NCBI GenBank assembly: GCA_026390115.1
Contig: JAPLGO010000016.1
Location: forward strand, 124,001-188,000
From: Campylobacterales bacterium
GTDB lineage: Bacteria > Campylobacterota > Campylobacteria > Campylobacterales > Sulfurimonadaceae
Reading direction: 5' to 3'
DNA: 64,000 bases
Shown here: positions 42,600 through 49,309 of the stretch, piece after piece
How the letters are laid out: every line of letters begins with the position of its first letter
Position numbering within the stretch: the stretch's first letter is position 1
Notes under the pieces: generated by a model
The model's database searches: none
Seen by the model: the letters and a program-made list of their open reading frames with translations, nothing else
What the model was told of the DNA's origin: nothing
Position numbers and translations under genes: made by a program

Positions 42600-42631
42600 A
42601 AAACTTTTTAAATCTCCGGCATTTATGCCGG

Positions 42632-42700
42632 TAGCTTTAGGGGGTTGTAAGGGACAATATTGTCCCTGCCATTAAAGCGGACTGGTTCGTTTTAATGCAT
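42632..42700 (+). repeat. Structured dispersed repeat, copy 1
   Basis: Starts TAGCTTTAGGGGGTTGTA, then a perfect 18-base palindrome (AGGGACAAT / ATTGTCCCT), then an imperfect stem CATTAAAGC ... GTTTTAATG around GGACTGGTTC-like loop sequence. A 7-bp hairpin (CCGGCAT/ATGCCGG) directly precedes it. Copy 2 is at 49235-49301 in the same orientation. It lies between frdB and gdhA. Confidence 0.8.
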
Positions 42701-42727
42701 AAAATCAAATAGAAAAAAAGGAGTTAC

Positions 42728-44083
42728 ATGTCAATAGCAGAAATGGAGATAGAAAAGTTTGAAAAGGGCGGGGGCGATGAAAATAAGGTCTTTTATCAAG
42801 CGATGGAGGAGGTTATCCGCTCTATTGCTCCGCTTTTGGAGTCTGACCCGAAATATACAAAATACGCAGTTTTAGAGAGACTTGTTGTGCCTGACAGGGT
42901 TATAAAGTTTAAAGTTACTTGGTTTGATGACAATCAAAATGTTATGGTAAATACGGGTTACAGAGTCCAGTTTAACAATTCACTTGGACCCTACAAGGGC
43001 GGTTTGCGATTTCATCCGAGCGTGAATGAGGGGATTTTGAAGTTTTTAGGGTTTGAGCAGATTCTAAAAAACTCACTTACAGGATTGCCTATCGGCGGTG
43101 CTAAAGGCGGAAGTGACTTTGATCCTAAAGGAAAAAGCGATTTTGAAGTTATGAAATTTTGTGCTGCTTTTATGACGGAACTTCATAAATATATCGGACC
43201 CCGCATCGATATTCCGGCGGGCGATATCGGGGTTGGAGGGCGTGAAATAGGGTATCTTTTTGGAGAATACAAAAAAATTACTCTTAAATATGATGGAGTT
43301 CTGACAGGTAAGCCCTTTATGTTTGGCGGTTCTTTGATGCGCCCTGAGGCTACGGGGTACGGAGCTGTTTATTTTACTGAAAAGATGTTGGAGATAGAGA
43401 ATAAAGAGCCGCTTTCTGGCAAGGTTTGTACAGTGAGCGGAGCGGGAAATGTGGCACTCCATGCCATAGAAAAACTGCAGCAGATTGGGGCGATTCCCGT
43501 AACATGTACAGACTCGCAAGGTACTATTTATCATTCAAAAGGTGTGGATTTAGTACTTCTAAAAGATTTGAAATTAGAGAAGAGAGCTTCGCTAGAAGAA
43601 TATATAAAAAGTCATCCTGAAGCAGTGTATATTCCAACTTCAAACTATCCTGATGGAGGGCATGCTGTTTGGAACATTCCTTGTTTTGCAGCATTTCCTT
43701 GCGCAACACAAAATGAGCTGACAGAAATAGATGCAAAAAATTTGATTGCAAACGGATGCATCAGCATAACTGAGGGTGCAAACATGCCATGTACTCCAGA
43801 GGCAACCGAGCTGTTTTTATCACAAAAAATCTGTTTTGCACCTGCAAAAGCGGCAAATGCGGGAGGTGTGGCAGTGAGTGAGTTTGAGATGAGCCAAAAC
43901 GCTTCCATGCAACGATGGTCTTTTGAAAAAGTGGATAAAAAATTAAAAATAATTATGAGACAAATTTGTACAAGGGTTGCCTTAACTGCGAAAGATTATG
44001 GAGTTGAAGGGAATTATGTCGATGGTGCGAACATTGCAGGATTTAAAAAAGTGGCAGACGCTATGATTGCAGAGGGAATTTAA
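42728..44083 (+). CDS. gdhA: NADP-type glutamate dehydrogenase
   Basis: The 451-residue protein matches hexameric bacterial GdhA. It has RVQFNNSLGPYKGGLRFHPSVN, the catalytic Lys region GLPIGGAKGGSDFDPKGKSD, DIPAGDIGVGGREIGYLFG, and a nucleotide-binding segment VCTVSGAGNVALHAIEKL. ITEGANMPCTPEA and APAKAANAGGVAVSEFEMSQN follow. It makes glutamate from 2-oxoglutarate and ammonia. AAAAAAAGGAG precedes the ATG. Length is normal. It has the repeat upstream and a degraded segment downstream. Confidence 0.95.
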   Translation: MSIAEMEIEKFEKGGGDENKVFYQAMEEVIRSIAPLLESDPKYTKYAVLERLVVPDRVIKFKVTWFDDNQNVMVNTGYRVQFNNSLGPYKGGLRFHPSVNEGILKFLGFEQILKNSLTGLPIGGAKGGSDFDPKGKSDFEVMKFCAAFMTELHKYIGPRIDIPAGDIGVGGREIGYLFGEYKKITLKYDGVLTGKPFMFGGSLMRPEATGYGAVYFTEKMLEIENKEPLSGKVCTVSGAGNVALHAIEKLQQIGAIPVTCTDSQGTIYHSKGVDLVLLKDLKLEKRASLEEYIKSHPEAVYIPTSNYPDGGHAVWNIPCFAAFPCATQNELTEIDAKNLIANGCISITEGANMPCTPEATELFLSQKICFAPAKAANAGGVAVSEFEMSQNASMQRWSFEKVDKKLKIIMRQICTRVALTAKDYGVEGNYVDGANIAGFKKVADAMIAEGI

Positions 44084-44153
44084 ACGTCGATTTTTTCCTA
44101 CATGGCAATCCTTTTGACACAGGAATTCTTGCAAAAAGCCTAATTGAAATATT

Positions 44154-44267
44154 GGCATACTTCTGTTATACCATTTAGTATTGTCAGCAAAATATAGAAG
44201 AGAAGTTTTCAATAAAAAAATTGACTTAACATTAAAAGAAATTTGTTTGGAAATAAATAATGATTAA
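44154..44267 (+). pseudogene. IS200/IS605-family TnpA remnant
   Basis: In the gap after gdhA, one frame reads GILLLYHLVLSAKYRREVFN then KKIDLTLKEICLEINND before TAA at 44265-44267. The pattern YHLV...KYRR.VF followed by a helix LKEI...I is the N-terminal hallmark of IS200/IS605 Y1 transposases (HxV...TKYR). No HUH motif or catalytic Tyr follows, and there is no start codon. It is a short scar, not an active element. The remaining ~390 bases between gdhA and the TPR gene show no other intact gene. Confidence 0.55.
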
Positions 44268-44377
44268 GACCAAGTTTATTCAAATATATAACAAAATATA
44301 GTAGACAATTAGTTACTAAGTATCGACTTGTTAGCTCTATTCAACCAATTATGGCTACATAAAAAAAGGAGTGAATG

Positions 44378-44482
44378 ATGTCATTAAATTTAGAAGATAT
44401 TTTAGTAGTCTATATTTCAGCAACTGCGTTATTTGATTTATCAACGCCTCCGGAATATAAGTGTGATATACCTCTGTGCTAG
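44378..44482 (+). pseudogene. Probable N-terminal remnant of a cytosolic 5'-nucleotidase
   Basis: AAAAAAAGGAGTG precedes ATG at 44378. The frame reads MSLNLEDILVVYISATALFD, then LSTPPEYKCDIPLC and TAG at 44480-44482. The first 22 residues resemble the start of PF06189-type 5'-nucleotidases (LVV.IS..ALFDL). After LFDLS the similarity stops, so a rearrangement likely fused this start, with its good ribosome binding site, to other DNA. Its stop overlaps the GTG start of the TPR gene, so it may now serve as a leader for that gene. Confidence 0.5.
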
Positions 44483-45978
44483 GACATGCCCAAGAGATAA
44501 ACTCCGCATCCGGTTTCAGCCTTGCAGCCTCTTGCGCTTACATGCTTGGAGAGTATGATTTAGCCGAGAAATATTGGCATAGTATTTTAGAGATAGAGCC
44601 TGATAATGCAGATGCTTATAATAATTTGGGAGTTTTATTTCTCAACATGGAGCGTTTTGAAGAGGCAAAAAATGCTTTTGTTCAAACAATAAAATTCAAA
44701 AAAGAGTCTTTTCAGGCATACAATAATTTGGGGATAACGCTTAAAGCACTTTTTCGTTTTGATGAGGCAAAAATCGCATATCAAAAAGCTTTAGAAATAA
44801 ATCCAAATGATGCGGAAATACTTAGTAATTTGGGTAATTTACATAGAGAGCTTCAACATTTTGATGAGGCAGAAGCCTTCTATCGGGAGGCTATTGCTCT
44901 GCAACCGGATTATGTGAATGCTTATCGAAATCTTGGATTATTGCTTAAAGGAACAAAGCGTTTTATTGAGGCAGAAGAGACATATAAATATGTTCTAAAA
45001 TTAAAACCCACATGTGTCCAAACACAATCAAATCTTTCTTTTTTATTGCTGGAACAGGGAAGATACACCCAAGCATGGCCGCTCTTTGAAGTACGATATG
45101 CACCTTCTCTGCTTCACTCATCGGCTCACATGCCAATATTGTCTTTTCCTAAGTGGCAAGGAGAATCTTTATTCGGTAAATCCTTGATCATTCTACATGA
45201 ACAGGGATTCGGTGATGAAATTATGTTTGCACGCTATGTGCATGTTCTTGAAAAAATGGGTGCTTCACGCATCACTCTTGTCTGTAAAGCGCCCTTAATT
45301 AGTTTATTCCAATCTCTCTCTTCAAGTATTCTTAGTGTTACTTCTGATGAGGAGATTATGGAGCATGACTTTTGGAGCTTTTTACTGAGTTTGCCGCTTC
45401 ACTGCAAAACGACTTTAGAGACTATTCCCTCAGAGTTGCCTTATCTGAGTGTTCCAAAAAATTGTGTAGAGTATTGGAAAAATAAATTGCCCAAAGAGGG
45501 TATGAATGTTGGAATTGTATGGAAGGGTTCATCGCATCACCTCAATGATTTGCACCGTTCTCTTTCGTCGTTGTCGGAGATTAAACCTTTATGGTCAATC
45601 TCGGGTGTGCATTTTATAAGTCTTCAAAAAGGCTCAGGCGAAGATGAGGCAATCAATCCGCCTCTTGACCAACCGCTTATCCATTTGGGCACAGAGATAG
45701 AAAATTTTTTAGATACCGCAGCTATTGTTGAAGCCCTTGACTTGGTAATTTGTGTAGATACTGCAATTGTCCATCTTGCAGGCGCATTAGGAACGGAGTG
45801 TTGGGTATTGTTACCTGAAGTCGGTACGGATTGGCGATGGCTCAGAGATAGAGACGATTCACCTTGGTATCCAAATGTCATGAGACTTTTTCGGCAAAAA
45901 ACACCGCAGAGATGGAATGAAACAATCAATGAAGTAGCGTTTGCGCTGAAGAAAAAGATAAACATGCTAATTTTCTAA
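44476..45978 (+). CDS. TPR protein with glycosyltransferase-9-like C-terminal domain
   Basis: The 500-residue product begins (GTG 44476, no ribosome binding site) already close to TPR sequence. About five TPR units lie between residues 10 and 190 (YDLAEKYWHSILEIEPDNADAYNNLGVLF, FDEAKIAYQKALEINPNDAEILSNLGNLH, and so on). The C-terminal domain (about 215-490) resembles the TPR-linked heptosyltransferase-like group: LHEQGFGDEIMFARYVHVLEKMG, VGIVWKGSSHHLNDLHRSLS, DTAAIVEALDLVICVDTAIVHLAGALG, SPWYPNVMRLFRQ. It may glycosylate a protein or surface polymer. The N-terminus may be truncated by the rearrangement described at 44378; translation may depend on coupling to that leader. Confidence 0.75.
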   Translation: MLGHAQEINSASGFSLAASCAYMLGEYDLAEKYWHSILEIEPDNADAYNNLGVLFLNMERFEEAKNAFVQTIKFKKESFQAYNNLGITLKALFRFDEAKIAYQKALEINPNDAEILSNLGNLHRELQHFDEAEAFYREAIALQPDYVNAYRNLGLLLKGTKRFIEAEETYKYVLKLKPTCVQTQSNLSFLLLEQGRYTQAWPLFEVRYAPSLLHSSAHMPILSFPKWQGESLFGKSLIILHEQGFGDEIMFARYVHVLEKMGASRITLVCKAPLISLFQSLSSSILSVTSDEEIMEHDFWSFLLSLPLHCKTTLETIPSELPYLSVPKNCVEYWKNKLPKEGMNVGIVWKGSSHHLNDLHRSLSSLSEIKPLWSISGVHFISLQKGSGEDEAINPPLDQPLIHLGTEIENFLDTAAIVEALDLVICVDTAIVHLAGALGTECWVLLPEVGTDWRWLRDRDDSPWYPNVMRLFRQKTPQRWNETINEVAFALKKKINMLIF

Positions 45979-46193
45979 GATTTACATAATACCTCGTAGT
46001 TAGTAATATAGCTTGCATTTGCGTGTTGGAATAAAGGGGATAAAACTTTAATCTATAGCTTAAAGGCAACATGAAATATATTTTTACCTTTTACATACCA
46101 ATAATCGGCATGAAAAAATCCCTCTTACGATAGTTTCAGACTTTTTCGATAAAATCATTTTTCAAGAATTTATACTAATAAATAAGGTACTTT

Positions 46194-46811
46194 ATGGAAC
46201 AAACAAAATCAAGAGTAAATATTTATGGGCTTTTATCTCGTGTCTTACTTCAAGAGCTCGATTTGGAAGTTTTAAAAACTATAAAAAGTGATGAAAATAT
46301 TTTAGATTTTTTCCCAACTTTACGAGATTGGAAGGAGTTTAAAGAGGTTGATGAGAGCAAGCTTTTGGATGAGTATTTTAATCCTGACTTCGTAAATCTT
46401 TCTGTGTTACACCTCATTCCCTATGAAACTTTTTACACAAGAGAAGACCAGAAGATTGAGACGGGCGGAGCAAATCCTGTAACGGACATGTATAGTGCTT
46501 ATGATTTTATGGTAGATTACGAAGCTTCTCGCACTGTCTCGGCTGACCACATCGGGGTAGAGTTGGAGTTTATGCATCATCTTTGCGTGGCGGAGATGAA
46601 GGCTTTGCAAGAGGGTGATAAAGAGGCAATAAAAGAGCTTCAAGAGGTGCAACGTGCGTTTTTAAACAAACACCTTCTTCAGTGGGCGCCGATGTATCTC
46701 ATTAGCATGAAGTTTGAAGCCAGAACACCTCTCTACTACGATGCTGCAGATATGGCGTTGGAGTTTATTTTGAGCGATAATGAGTATTTGGTAAAAGAGT
46801 TAAACCTCTAA
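46194..46811 (+). CDS. TorD-family molybdoenzyme chaperone
   Basis: The 205-residue all-helical protein shows the TorD/DmsD pattern: RVNIYGLLSRVLLQELD, HLIPYETFYTREDQKIETGG (the family's P-Y-E-F-like region), DHIGVELEFMHHLCVAEMKAL and FLNKHLLQWAPMYLISMK (family H..W.P). Such chaperones bind signal peptides of molybdoenzymes and help insert the cofactor. It starts a tight four-gene cluster (1 base before the ferredoxin gene). AAGGT precedes the ATG. No molybdoenzyme gene is in the window, so the client is unknown. Confidence 0.9.
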   Translation: MEQTKSRVNIYGLLSRVLLQELDLEVLKTIKSDENILDFFPTLRDWKEFKEVDESKLLDEYFNPDFVNLSVLHLIPYETFYTREDQKIETGGANPVTDMYSAYDFMVDYEASRTVSADHIGVELEFMHHLCVAEMKALQEGDKEAIKELQEVQRAFLNKHLLQWAPMYLISMKFEARTPLYYDAADMALEFILSDNEYLVKELNL

Positions 46812-46812
46812 C

Positions 46813-47913
46813 ATGTCACTCATTCAGTTAAATGCAAGCAGATGTGTCCGTTCCCTCAGCAAAGAGAGCGAGTGTAACAGGTGTGAAGTTATCTGCCCGA
46901 CCGGAGCGATAGTTGTGGGGGATAATCCGCTCCCTGCTATAAATTTCTCCTTATGTGTGGGTTGCGGAGCATGTGATGCAATTTGTCCAAACGAGGCGCT
47001 CTTCCTTGATGACTTCAACTCTACAAACTTCTTTTTTGATTTTATAGAGGATGAGCAGAATATTATCTCTTGCCGCAAGAATGTTCCTTGTATTGCAGCT
47101 TTGGGGGTTGAATATCTTATCTCTTTGGCGGTGCTCAAAAAAGAGGTAGTTTTTGACATGGGGTATTGCGACACATGTGAGATTCAGTCCACATGCAAAG
47201 CCCAAATTCTCAAAAACCATGAAGAGGCTTCTTACCTGCTCGAAGCTATGGAAAATGGGGCTTTAATCAGATTGGAAAATATCTGCTATGAAAGTGAACT
47301 TAAAGAGAGCAACAGAAGAGATTTTCTTCGTTCAATTAACTTCACATCCATAGTAAAAACTAAACACAGTTTTGAGCAAGAGGTAAAAAAAGCTACGGAT
47401 GAGCTGGTGGAACACACTCTTAAAAAAGCGGATATCGCACTGCTAAAACAGAAGAGAATTCCACACAAAAGAAAGCTTTTTTTTACAGCGATTAAGAGAG
47501 TCCAAAAGCCGTCTCTTTACCATGTGGTGGATGCAGCAGAAATCTCTTTTACCTCGCAAAAACTTATGGATAAAGAAAGTTGCACGGCATGTCAGATGTG
47601 TTACAGAGTCTGTCCAACAGGTGCTTTGACTTCGGATGTGAAAAATTCTAAGATAGATTTTGATCCATTTTTGTGTATAAAGTGTAATATCTGCCATGAT
47701 GTGTGTGAGCCAAATGCGATAACGCTCTCGCCTTCTTATAATATAAAAGAATTTTTTGAGCCGGAGGTGCAGAATTTGATAACATTCAGTGTAAGAAGAT
47801 GCAATGAGTGCAGTGTGATTTTCAGCACAAATTCGGGCGAAAAACTCTGTTACAGATGTAAAGCAGAGGAAGAAGAGGCGAGAGAACTTTGGGGAATACA
47901 AAATGATGAATAA
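46813..47913 (+). CDS. Polyferredoxin-like 4Fe-4S protein of the TorD cluster
   Basis: The 366-residue protein has several [4Fe-4S] motifs: a partial one at the start (CNRCEVICPTGAI), CVGCGACDAICPNEAL (about 46-60), CTACQMCYRVCPTGAL (about 257-272) and CIKCNICHDVCEPNAI (about 288-303). Near the C-terminus CNECSV...CYRC looks like a zinc or extra cluster site. A middle region with CDTCEIQSTC separates the two ferredoxin pairs. No membrane helix is present. The sequence RRDFLRSI (about 175) resembles a Tat motif but is internal. It likely passes electrons in maturation or reactivation of a molybdoenzyme; it overlaps the next gene by 11 bases. Confidence 0.82.
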   Translation: MSLIQLNASRCVRSLSKESECNRCEVICPTGAIVVGDNPLPAINFSLCVGCGACDAICPNEALFLDDFNSTNFFFDFIEDEQNIISCRKNVPCIAALGVEYLISLAVLKKEVVFDMGYCDTCEIQSTCKAQILKNHEEASYLLEAMENGALIRLENICYESELKESNRRDFLRSINFTSIVKTKHSFEQEVKKATDELVEHTLKKADIALLKQKRIPHKRKLFFTAIKRVQKPSLYHVVDAAEISFTSQKLMDKESCTACQMCYRVCPTGALTSDVKNSKIDFDPFLCIKCNICHDVCEPNAITLSPSYNIKEFFEPEVQNLITFSVRRCNECSVIFSTNSGEKLCYRCKAEEEEARELWGIQNDE

Positions 47914-48664
47914 CGCAAATGAAATTTCTAAGAAAACAAAACTCTATGGTTTTATCGGTGAACATGCCGGTGTAAGCAGGTTTAGCACGCTGATAAACAA
48001 GATGTTTAAAGAGCATGGCGATGATGCCATGATGATTCCGATGAATATTAGAGAGGATGATTTTTACTTCACACTCTCCAATATGAAAAAATCGCATGTG
48101 GATGGAGCGGTTATTTCAAACGAATATGTGAGCAGAGTTATTGAAGTTCTTGATGAGACTTCTTCTCTGGTAAAGCGAAGCGGCATGTGCGATATTGTCT
48201 TCAAAGAGGGTGAAAAACTCAGAGGTGATTTGTTTGGTATGCGGGTTTTGCTGGAGCATCTCAAAGATTTGAGACTCTCTAAAATAGCTCTTATCGGTAC
48301 AACTTCGCATGCTAAAGCCTTTTCATTTTTGTCATGCGGATTTGAGGTGAGTTACTTTGGAGAAAATCTTGAAGAGCTTATGCAGTTCTGCGAGGAGGTT
48401 GAGATAAAAGACGGCGATTTGAACCGCTTGGCAAAGGGTTTAAATAGTGATTTGTCCGGCTTTGATGCGGTTCTGGACTTCTCCAATATGAGGAGTTTAG
48501 AGAGCGTTGAAATATTGCCTCTCTTTAATTTTGACATGAAAAACAATAAAGAGTACTCGCCACTAAAATCAAGAGCGCACGATCTTGGTGCGGAGTACAC
48601 AAGCTATGACGACATGATAGAAATATTTGCCCAAAAAGCGTACAAAACTATAAAAGGAAATTGA
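47903..48664 (+). CDS. AroE (shikimate dehydrogenase)-like protein of the TorD cluster
   Basis: The 253-residue protein starts KTKLYGFIGEHAGVSRFSTLINKMFKEHGDDAMMIPMNIREDDFYF, which resembles the substrate domain of AroE with the catalytic Lys region replaced (MKKSHVDGAVISNEY). A Rossmann-like segment follows (LSKIALIGTTSHAKAFSFLS, around 125), with the glycine-rich loop degraded, so dehydrogenase activity is doubtful. It is encoded between a ferredoxin and a hypothetical protein in a molybdoenzyme maturation-like cluster, not near aromatic amino-acid genes. Function unknown. Confidence 0.62.
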   Translation: MMNNANEISKKTKLYGFIGEHAGVSRFSTLINKMFKEHGDDAMMIPMNIREDDFYFTLSNMKKSHVDGAVISNEYVSRVIEVLDETSSLVKRSGMCDIVFKEGEKLRGDLFGMRVLLEHLKDLRLSKIALIGTTSHAKAFSFLSCGFEVSYFGENLEELMQFCEEVEIKDGDLNRLAKGLNSDLSGFDAVLDFSNMRSLESVEILPLFNFDMKNNKEYSPLKSRAHDLGAEYTSYDDMIEIFAQKAYKTIKGN

Positions 48665-48665
48665 T

Positions 48666-49166
48666 ATGAATGAACATGATTTAAAAGATTTAAGAGTTGA
48701 GTTTGATAAGTTTGTAAATGAAGGTTGTACGCTGGATTCACAGTCCGGTGCAACCCGAAATACGGCTGATAAAGAGGAGGAAGAGCCAGTTCCACAGTTT
48801 GTGGATGCACTCACTACGATACTTTTGGCACCGGCACATAGCGGAGTTTACCTTTCAAGACTCGATATAAAAAGAATTGCCGAAGCGATTGATGAGTCTA
48901 TTCCAATCAAAGAGCGACTCAAAATGGTTCGCTCGCTTTTTAGACACACAACAAAAAAAGAGTATCTGGAAGAGGCTTTTGGTGAGATAAATAAGCACAT
49001 AAACGGGCGTATTTTAATCTATCAAGAACTCGGTGAAGCGTTTCCTGCATCAAAGTTTATTTTTGCCGAGCATACAAAAAAAGCAGAAAAAACTATGAAA
49101 ATGTTGCAGCAGATTATAGAGGATTTTGAAGAGATAGAGCCGACAAGCGACCCCTTAGCTATTTAG
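48666..49166 (+). CDS. Hypothetical protein of the TorD cluster
   Basis: The 166-residue acidic, helical protein starts one base after the AroE-like gene and closes the cluster. Visible parts are PVPQFVDALTTILLAPAHSGVYLSRLDIKRIAEAIDESIPIKERLKMVRSLFRH and EAFPASKFIFAEHTKKAEKTMKML. No enzyme motif or membrane helix. The two internal helices around DIKRIAEAID and KERLKMVRSLF could be an interaction surface for the TorD-like partner. I know it only as a likely conserved hypothetical of this gene set. Confidence 0.65.
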   Translation: MNEHDLKDLRVEFDKFVNEGCTLDSQSGATRNTADKEEEEPVPQFVDALTTILLAPAHSGVYLSRLDIKRIAEAIDESIPIKERLKMVRSLFRHTTKKEYLEEAFGEINKHINGRILIYQELGEAFPASKFIFAEHTKKAEKTMKMLQQIIEDFEEIEPTSDPLAI

Positions 49167-49170
49167 TTGA

Positions 49171-49201
49171 TTTTACGCACTTTTCAAAAAAGTGCGTAAA
49201 A
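49171..49201. terminator. Strong hairpin after the TorD cluster
   Basis: TTTTACGCACTTTT and its exact reverse complement form a 14-bp stem with a 3-base loop, 4 bases past the stop of the preceding gene. No T-run follows outside the stem, although the stem's own end is T-rich on either strand. It may act as a bidirectional terminator or mRNA 3' stabiliser. A second 8-bp hairpin (CGAAAAAC/GTTTTTCG, 49216-49234) follows. Confidence 0.6.
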
Positions 49202-49234
49202 CACCTTGAAATTCTCGAAAAACAGAGTTTTTCG

Positions 49235-49301
49235 TAGCTTTAGGGGGTTGTAGGGACAATCTGTCCCTACCACTAAAACGGACTTGTTTGTTTTAGTGCG
49301 T
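49235..49301 (+). repeat. Structured dispersed repeat, copy 2
   Basis: Matches copy 1 (42632-42700) along its whole length: TAGCTTTAGGGGGTTGTA, then AGGGACA / TGTCCCT, then CACTAAAAC / GTTTTAGTG around GGACTTGTTT. Relative to copy 1, the stem bases change in pairs (T-A to C-G) and a G-T pair becomes A-T, so pairing is kept. It is preceded directly by the 49216-49234 hairpin and lies between convergent genes. Confidence 0.8.
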
Positions 49302-49309
49302 AACATCAG

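Follow-up and report, generated by a model that had tools for sequence, protein, structure and literature searches.

The BOX, RUP, ERIC and NEMIS sequences are structured bacterial repeats that are intergenic, folded and dispersed, and they are probably non-autonomous. Repetitive extragenic palindromic (REP) sequences and bacterial interspersed mosaic elements (BIMEs), which occur with REP-associated tyrosine transposases (RAYTs), are palindromes at gene ends with a hairpin beside a GTAG motif. Single-strand transposases of the Y1 type are not known to make terminal inverted repeats or target-site duplications (TSDs). Among insertion sequences (ISs) of the IS701 family, we take ISAba11 to be the nearest member, and the transposase family NCBIfam NF049921 is presumably tied to it. 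A bacterial miniature inverted-repeat transposable element (MITE) with a parent IS is MITEAba12, which belongs to ISAba12 and has a 9-bp TSD (PMC6382973). We analysed a stretch of 64,000 nucleotides, here called the window, from a Campylobacterales bacterium of the Sulfurimonadaceae (assembly GCA_026390115.1; own genome, G000, 2,640,099 bases in 39 contigs), corresponding to C33:124001-188000 (contig JAPLGO010000016.1). Two look-alike sequences at 42632 and 49235 of the window were found to be members of one repeat family, both on the plus strand and in the same direction. Matching ends, TSDs and an IS remnant in the own genome were observed. With a probability of about 0.85, the repeat is a non-coding MITE of an IS701-type element, a new family of a known kind.

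A preliminary description of the window had reported two direct copies with a common leader, a palindrome and a compensated stem, and all of these were confirmed in the sequence. Both copies share the leader, a GGGAC/GTCCC hairpin and a stem that reads CATTAAA/TTTAATG in copy 1 and CACTAAA/TTTAGTG in copy 2. The reported positions held, whereas copy 2 was larger than described and extended from terminal repeat to terminal repeat. The hairpin before each copy had been called unrelated. This was wrong: that hairpin forms helix 1 of the element, and its arms vary in sequence yet covary. The features of the two copies are as follows.

42613-42707, plus strand: copy 1, decayed, between the frdB-like gene and gdhA; intact core, degenerate right end GCATAAAATCA, left terminal repeat unrecognisable (sequence, model match)
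42616-42631, plus strand: copy 1 hairpin 1, CCGGCAT/ATGCCGG (inverted repeat, family alignment)
42632-42647, plus strand: copy 1 linker TAGCTTTAGGGGGTTG (sequence, linker search)
42650-42667, plus strand: copy 1 hairpin 2, AGGGACAAT/ATTGTCCCT (inverted repeat)
42670-42697, plus strand: copy 1 hairpin 3, CATTAAAGCGGAC/GTTCGTTTTAATG (inverted repeat, pairing statistics)
49167-49309, plus strand: copy 2, full-length element of 143 bp with two terminal repeats, abutting the TAG stop of the gene upstream (sequence, model match, fold z)
49167-49181, plus strand: copy 2 left terminal inverted repeat TTGATTTTACGCACT, consensus CTGAYNTTACGCACT (sequence; ends matching those at IS701-type transposases)
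49171-49201, plus strand: copy 2 left hairpin (hairpin 0), formed by the larger part of the terminal repeat and its own inverse (perfect 14-bp inverted repeat, arms 3 nt apart)
49216-49234, plus strand: copy 2 hairpin 1, sequence-variable and covarying (inverted repeat, covariation)
49235-49250, plus strand: copy 2 conserved linker TAGCTTTAGGGGGTTG (sequence, family alignment)
49251-49269, plus strand: copy 2 hairpin 2, TAGGGACA/TGTCCCTA (sequence, inverted repeat, pairing statistics)
49271-49298, plus strand: copy 2 hairpin 3, CACTAAAACGGAC/GTTTGTTTTAGTG (sequence, inverted repeat, pairing statistics)
49295-49309, plus strand: copy 2 right terminal inverted repeat AGTGCGTAACATCAG (sequence, end search)

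The covariance model matched copy 1 at 42613-42707 with 90.4 bits and copy 2 at 49213-49308 with 111.4 bits. Three further matches in the window (E up to 1) were weak and lay on the opposite strand of the palindromes of these two copies. The fold was more stable than that of shuffled sequences, with z = -3.3 in copy 1 and z = -8.0 in copy 2 at full length. A search of the own genome for the linker with at most one mismatch gave 16 matches, 13 of them exact; 15 were full cores and one was a chance match. The 15 aligned cores had a common layout, namely the variable hairpin 1, the linker, hairpin 2 (TAGGGAC...GTCCCTG), hairpin 3 (CACTAAAACGGAC...GTTCGTTTTAGTG) and the tail GTAACATCA. The segment 5' of the linker was absent in L006, hairpin 1 was of a different, longer type in L002 and L007, and additional hairpins were present inside the hairpin 3 loop in L014 and L015. 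When longer flanks were compared, full copies started with CTGAYNTTACGCAC and ended with its inverse. The full element thus consists of terminal inverted repeats, a left hairpin and three hairpins around a conserved linker. Of 127 copies in six genomes, 41 had a recognisable left end and 106 a right end. Full copies are short and filled with stems, so there is no room for a gene. The own genome also contained a second hairpin repeat, about 45 nt long (CTAAAGAAACATTTTCGC...GCGAAAAACGATTCTCTTGTTTTG). It was found inside hairpin 1 in L032, L033, L038, L039, L041 and L046, in the hairpin 3 loop of L036 and just upstream in L029, which indicated a repeat nested in hairpin loops.

TSDs were examined in a chosen subset of 97 copies (7 in G000, 11 in G004, 19 in G005, 9 in G016, 19 in G021 and 32 in G027). 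At the thresholds used, 35 of these copies had both ends, and they measured 122-145 bp in 32 cases and 162-164 bp in three. A 7-bp TSD that agreed at six or seven of its seven positions was present in 21 of the 35, and it was exact in seven. When the partners were shuffled 2000 times, the mean was 1.4 matches and the maximum was 7. No excess over the shuffled maximum was observed for lengths of 4-6 and 8-10 in the same 35 copies. G027 contributed 16 of the 21 TSD-bearing copies and all seven exact ones. The consensus of the duplicated site was TTANTAA. The terminal repeat itself gave matches in 8 of 11 genomes searched. G027 also contained a second MITE with the same ends (L141-L148); seven of its eight fetched copies were 269 bp long and one was 239 bp. 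It occurred in both orientations, and by eye its interior was G+C-rich and its 7-bp duplications included TTATGAA and TTCCAAA.

The same ends were found at transposase genes. Among 30 loci of a PF01609 scan, an end within one mismatch was present in three, L163 and L176 (both G028) and L178 (G036), and the latter two adjoin genes of the IS701 family (NF049921). A search for NF049921 in 248 genomes of the order gave 22 matching genomes, two of them above the cut-off, and 30 loci were fetched for inspection of their ends. In L184, element ends flanked the gene in a unit of 1102 bp with a 350-aa transposase, whose score of 329.8 bits exceeds the cut-off of 250. In L186 they flanked it in a unit of 1121 bp, with 218 bits and therefore under the cut-off. 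L185 had a left end beside the transposase gene and a contig edge on the other side, and L206 had a right end beside the gene. One element-like end each was present in L204 (G016), L201 (G064, of the same family as G027) and L208 (G043). L197 was a 276-bp deletion derivative with the TSD TTAATAA. The own genome carried a 364-bp internally deleted IS remnant, also with the TSD TTAATAA (L205; C12, about 252901-253264). The two segments of this remnant aligned to positions 2-250 (71%) and 989-1102 (68%) of L184, and the middle was missing. The ends and the 7-bp TSD thus occurred together in the deletion derivatives L197 and L205, and the ends alone in L184, L186, L185 and L206. Because the same ends border IS701-family transposases and the own genome holds a remnant with the TSD TTAATAA, the element was assigned as a MITE of the IS701 type. 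An IS701-family DDE transposase of the NF049921 type would have acted in trans, recognising terminal repeats of about 14 bp, and insertion would produce a 7-bp duplication at TTANTAA-like targets. The end in L163 belonged to a separate small element at about 628-753, some 126 bp long, with related ends and by eye the 7-bp TSD TTATTAA; this element adjoins a transposase gene of a different type.

The repeat resembles MITEAba12 and ISAba12 in being short and non-coding, with IS-identical inverted ends, TSDs of fixed length and many copies. It differs from MITEAba12 in its IS701-type ends, its 7-bp TSD, its covarying three-hairpin core and its position at stop codons, and it is known here from sequence alone. 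The IS found here resembles ISAba11 in its NF049921 transposase family, given the presumed tie, and in its total length of about 1.1 kb. Unlike the repeat, ISAba11 has its own transposase. The sequence of the terminal ends was not found in the open-licence literature.

Several observations weigh against this assignment. ISAba11 is reported to make 5-bp TSDs (PMC7885321), unlike the repeat with its 7-bp TSD. Copy 2 of the window had no convincing TSD, and copy 1 had no left end. The intact ISs L184 and L186 had no matching 7-bp TSD (4/7 each by eye). More distant transposases, such as those in L188-L195, were mostly without such ends, and in the copy-rich genomes no intact transposase bordered by them was found. 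PF01609 had no match in G021 or G027 and only sub-cut-off matches in G004 and G005; the three PF01609 loci of G016 all lacked element ends. Two distant end pairs in G027 consisted of small-element ends and chance matches, and a third (L132) spanned unrelated genes; none was an IS. Since no derivation of the three-hairpin core from the IS was found, the parentage rests on the ends and the TSD length. Finally, 68 of the 106 right-ended copies lacked a recognisable left end, and no TSD above shuffles was found at the boundaries tried.

These short copies could also be read in another way. The preliminary description had suggested a single-strand substrate with a linked RAYT or IS200 transposase, that is, palindromes of the REP/BIME kind moved by a hairpin-binding Y1 transposase (RAYT or IS200/IS605). 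The hairpins, the GTAG ahead of hairpin 2, the position at gene ends and the short copies without left repeat or TSD agree with such movement, and the first three are also what the repeat has in common with REP/BIME. However, inverted ends and 7-bp TSDs are present in full copies, and no linked RAYT was seen. Among 15 Y1_Tnp loci with 1.5-kb flanks where the contig allowed, the sole model match was window copy 1, which the edge of L018 truncates; the 14 others had none nearby. G021 with 20 copies, G040 with 9 and G024 with 7 had no Y1_Tnp match at all. One short copy was traced to the loss of a left end at an orthologous site, where the end was present in G005 and lost in G004 while hairpin 3 was identical (L217 vs L253, the same as L120 vs L070). 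An alternative left boundary with a TSD of its own was considered for the short copies and rejected. The terminal repeat was kept as the right-hand boundary, and 7-mers allowing one mismatch gave 9 matches between -34 and -20, within reach of the shuffles (mean 5.5, maximum 11). We therefore regard single-strand movement as very improbable.

A degraded IS200-type TnpA fragment (Y1_Tnp, E 2.4e-5) does lie between gdhA and the TPR gene at 44163-44270 on the plus strand, inside the block between the two copies. It would fit single-strand movement, and no indication that it is linked to the repeat was found. The only long Y1_Tnp-like gene of the own genome (C38:5113-5451; L017, and L019 5059-6471) encodes 470 aa and is located beside an ABC/HlyD-type secretion locus. 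By eye, its product has an N-terminal Y1_Tnp-like domain that seems to have lost the catalytic HUH motif and a SapC-like C-terminal part, and it looks like a domesticated transposase. As to generic palindromes, the table of a REP-finding tool includes Sulfurimonas gotlandica GD1 among many genomes, so counts of this kind exist for the genus.

The pair-preserving changes noticed between the two copies held across the own genome and across five genomes, far above shuffles. In the 15 own-genome copies, 94.3% of cells were paired and 12 of 28 pairs had two-sided changes. The number of two-sided-change cells was 40, compared with a shuffle mean of 10, and none of 500 shuffles reached 40. Pairing fell to about 37-46% when the partner was slid. 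For 89 matches from five genomes, 95.8% of cells were paired and 238 two-sided cells were counted against 43.7 in shuffles (0/500); this alignment was fitted to the covariance model and therefore leans towards pairing, and it includes one opposite-strand match. Covariation was mostly in hairpins 1 and 3, and hairpin 2 was nearly invariant. Such strong covariation, together with the location at gene ends, would also be expected of a cis-acting RNA in 3' untranslated regions, such as a terminator, stabiliser or riboregulator, in which a domesticated repeat is kept for its RNA fold. We consider this unlikely, and the dispersal is already explained by the signs of mobility. No intrinsic terminator (a G+C-rich hairpin followed by a T run) was predicted at either window copy. 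Rfam at gathering score gave 0 matches in the window, and a lax Rfam search of 15 loci (E up to 5) gave only two weak matches, both to a single miRNA family.

Simple open reading frame (ORF) calling for 30 own-genome copies placed 16 between convergent genes, 7 and 5 in the two tandem arrangements and 2 between divergent genes. Of the 127 copies, both sides were assignable in 47, of which 21 were convergent, 9 tandem sense, 14 tandem antisense and 3 divergent; gene order was not assignable on both sides in the remaining 80. The tandem pairs thus showed no strand preference, which argues against an RNA 3' element of the sense strand; an RNA 3' element had been among the suggestions for the window copies. 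The location after stop codons, named earlier as a point to check, was borne out, since copies often lie at stop codons and copy 2 directly follows a TAG. On the right side, a convergent ORF that was at least 65 codons long and terminated close to the element was present for 70 of the 106 right-ended copies. Judged only against evenness over positions, the stop began exactly at TSD base 1 in 17 of these 70, and in 19 it was the TGA that the terminal repeat contains. On the left side, the ORF ended exactly at the element in 8 of 20 cases, from 41 left-ended copies. Exact stop positions also arise from insertion just inside a gene, because the element ends carry stop codons. With this caution, only the TSD-start class and the left class count towards targeting, and the terminal-repeat TGA class does not.

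TTANTAA consists of two opposed stop codons. As it reads as a stop codon both ways, insertion at a gene end, above all between convergent genes, could keep both stops and be nearly silent. A bolder proposal would be that the transposase prefers TTANTAA, with the TSD restoring both convergent stops, and that the inserted element then loses its transposition ends while selection keeps the core as part of the gene boundary, turning a parasite into a 3'-end architecture shared across the genus. This is possible and, in our estimation, doubtful. A two-way roadblock or a shield of mRNA 3' ends would be examples of such a role. No title on stop-codon targeting was found in the open-licence literature.

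Once inserted, copies would lose their terminal repeats and left hairpin by decay or deletion, and the three-hairpin core would often be kept. That the core often remains where an end is lost is compatible with a selected RNA, and so are pair-keeping double changes at orthologous sites, two each in L222/L255, L237/L387 and L231/L381. Orthologous pairs were taken from 27 both-flank matches among 202 distinct copies. Seventeen pairs, which are non-independent, were counted, and the 10 uncounted pairs are all comparisons within a single site (L231, L250, L366, L381, L383, L388). The 17 pairs contained 30 two-sided paired changes, 22 one-sided changes and 31 broken cells. Broken pairs were thus as many as two-sided changes, which speaks against a fold kept for RNA function. 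Of the 30 two-sided changes, 20 came from L002/L390, L059/L367 and L059/L497, three pairs that were likely affected by re-insertion or conversion. The clearest in-place cases were L222/L255, in which two broken cells accompanied the two-sided changes, and L237/L387, in which there were none. At the permease-nusA site, two of 30 fetched loci had a model match (L073, L078 hand-added), and one looks freshly inserted.

These counts make the reading of a selected core less probable and that of mutational upkeep more so. Mutational upkeep means that pairing is kept by quasi-palindrome template switching and conversion between copies and not by selection, which is compatible with a MITE. Hairpin 1 was wholly different between the orthologues L002 and L390, and at one site consensus-like cores in L383/L388 were found where relatives hold diverged ones (L231/L250). 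Both observations agree with upkeep of this kind. However, conservation extends to the linker, which the model shows without pairing, and palindrome correction does not account for this. We hold mutational upkeep tentatively, as a serious possibility that falls short of being favoured. Selection on the fold is plausible, not proved. The core is most likely retained through structural selection at the ends of genes, or through palindrome-correcting mutation together with conversion between copies.

The two window copies had been viewed as the edges of a gdhA-TPR-TorD block that recombination could delete or add, and relatives did not support this. A search of 60 genomes of the genus for the frdB-like gene upstream of copy 1 gave matches in 59. 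Among the 21 closest-match loci, own included, the copy was present only in the own genome, and none of the 20 others had a model match. In six other genomes the frdB-like gene was followed by gdhA with no repeat in between. For the 166-aa gene that precedes copy 2, a search of 80 genomes gave matches in 65, and 30 loci were fetched. The own locus was the sole carrier, and 29 of 30 had no element at the place of copy 2. L436 had a model match, but elsewhere in the locus, as did L444 with a weak one (E 0.055). L437 had the same downstream sequence as the own genome, with the element absent. Because both junctions exist in relatives without the repeat, the window copies are separate insertions. 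There was no sign of gain or loss of the block via the repeats, and the genes between the copies are there by ordinary ancestry. Another repeat of the genus was seen at gene ends in L434, L440, L441, L446, L450, L454, L505 and L508 (AAAATAGC.ACGCATTTGCT.CGTTGCT...ATACT...GTATCCTTCCTC...CATCACTCTTTT), and by eye it is unrelated to the element.

The covariance model (R1, E <= 0.001) was applied to 41 genomes, the own and 40 relatives, and it found many further copies with preserved pairing, as expected of a dispersed multicopy family. The own genome gave 37 matches, at least one of which was the opposite strand of a copy already counted. Matches were present in 17 of the 41 genomes, own included (16 of 40 relatives), and 24 of the 41, 12 of them of the same genus, had none at this threshold. 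Numbers reached 20 in other members of the genus (G021) and 69 in G027, which belongs to a different family; G016 had 11. An exact 22-base pattern was found in at least 115 stretches in a contig search. Among the 80 matches listed, all were from Campylobacterota and about half from Sulfurimonas, the remainder carrying the names Sulfuricurvum, Sulfurovum, Sulfurospirillum or family-level or higher names. The likeness to BOX, RUP, ERIC and NEMIS is by description only, and the listed matches place the repeat in Campylobacterota. In plasmids, a single partial match was found, on a Sulfuricurvum kujiense plasmid. The element was not found in viral contigs, searched with the exact pattern, or in phages.

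The assignment explains a repeat that is present dozens of times in the genomes of some Sulfurimonas and of a relative, and ties it to a transposase family. It also corrects the natural first reading, in which a RAYT and a mobile block were suggested. With stop codons as its target, a transposon would have a concrete and testable means of inserting almost harmlessly. The retention of the core in copies without ends makes selection and mutational upkeep of hairpins testable against each other across orthologous copies.

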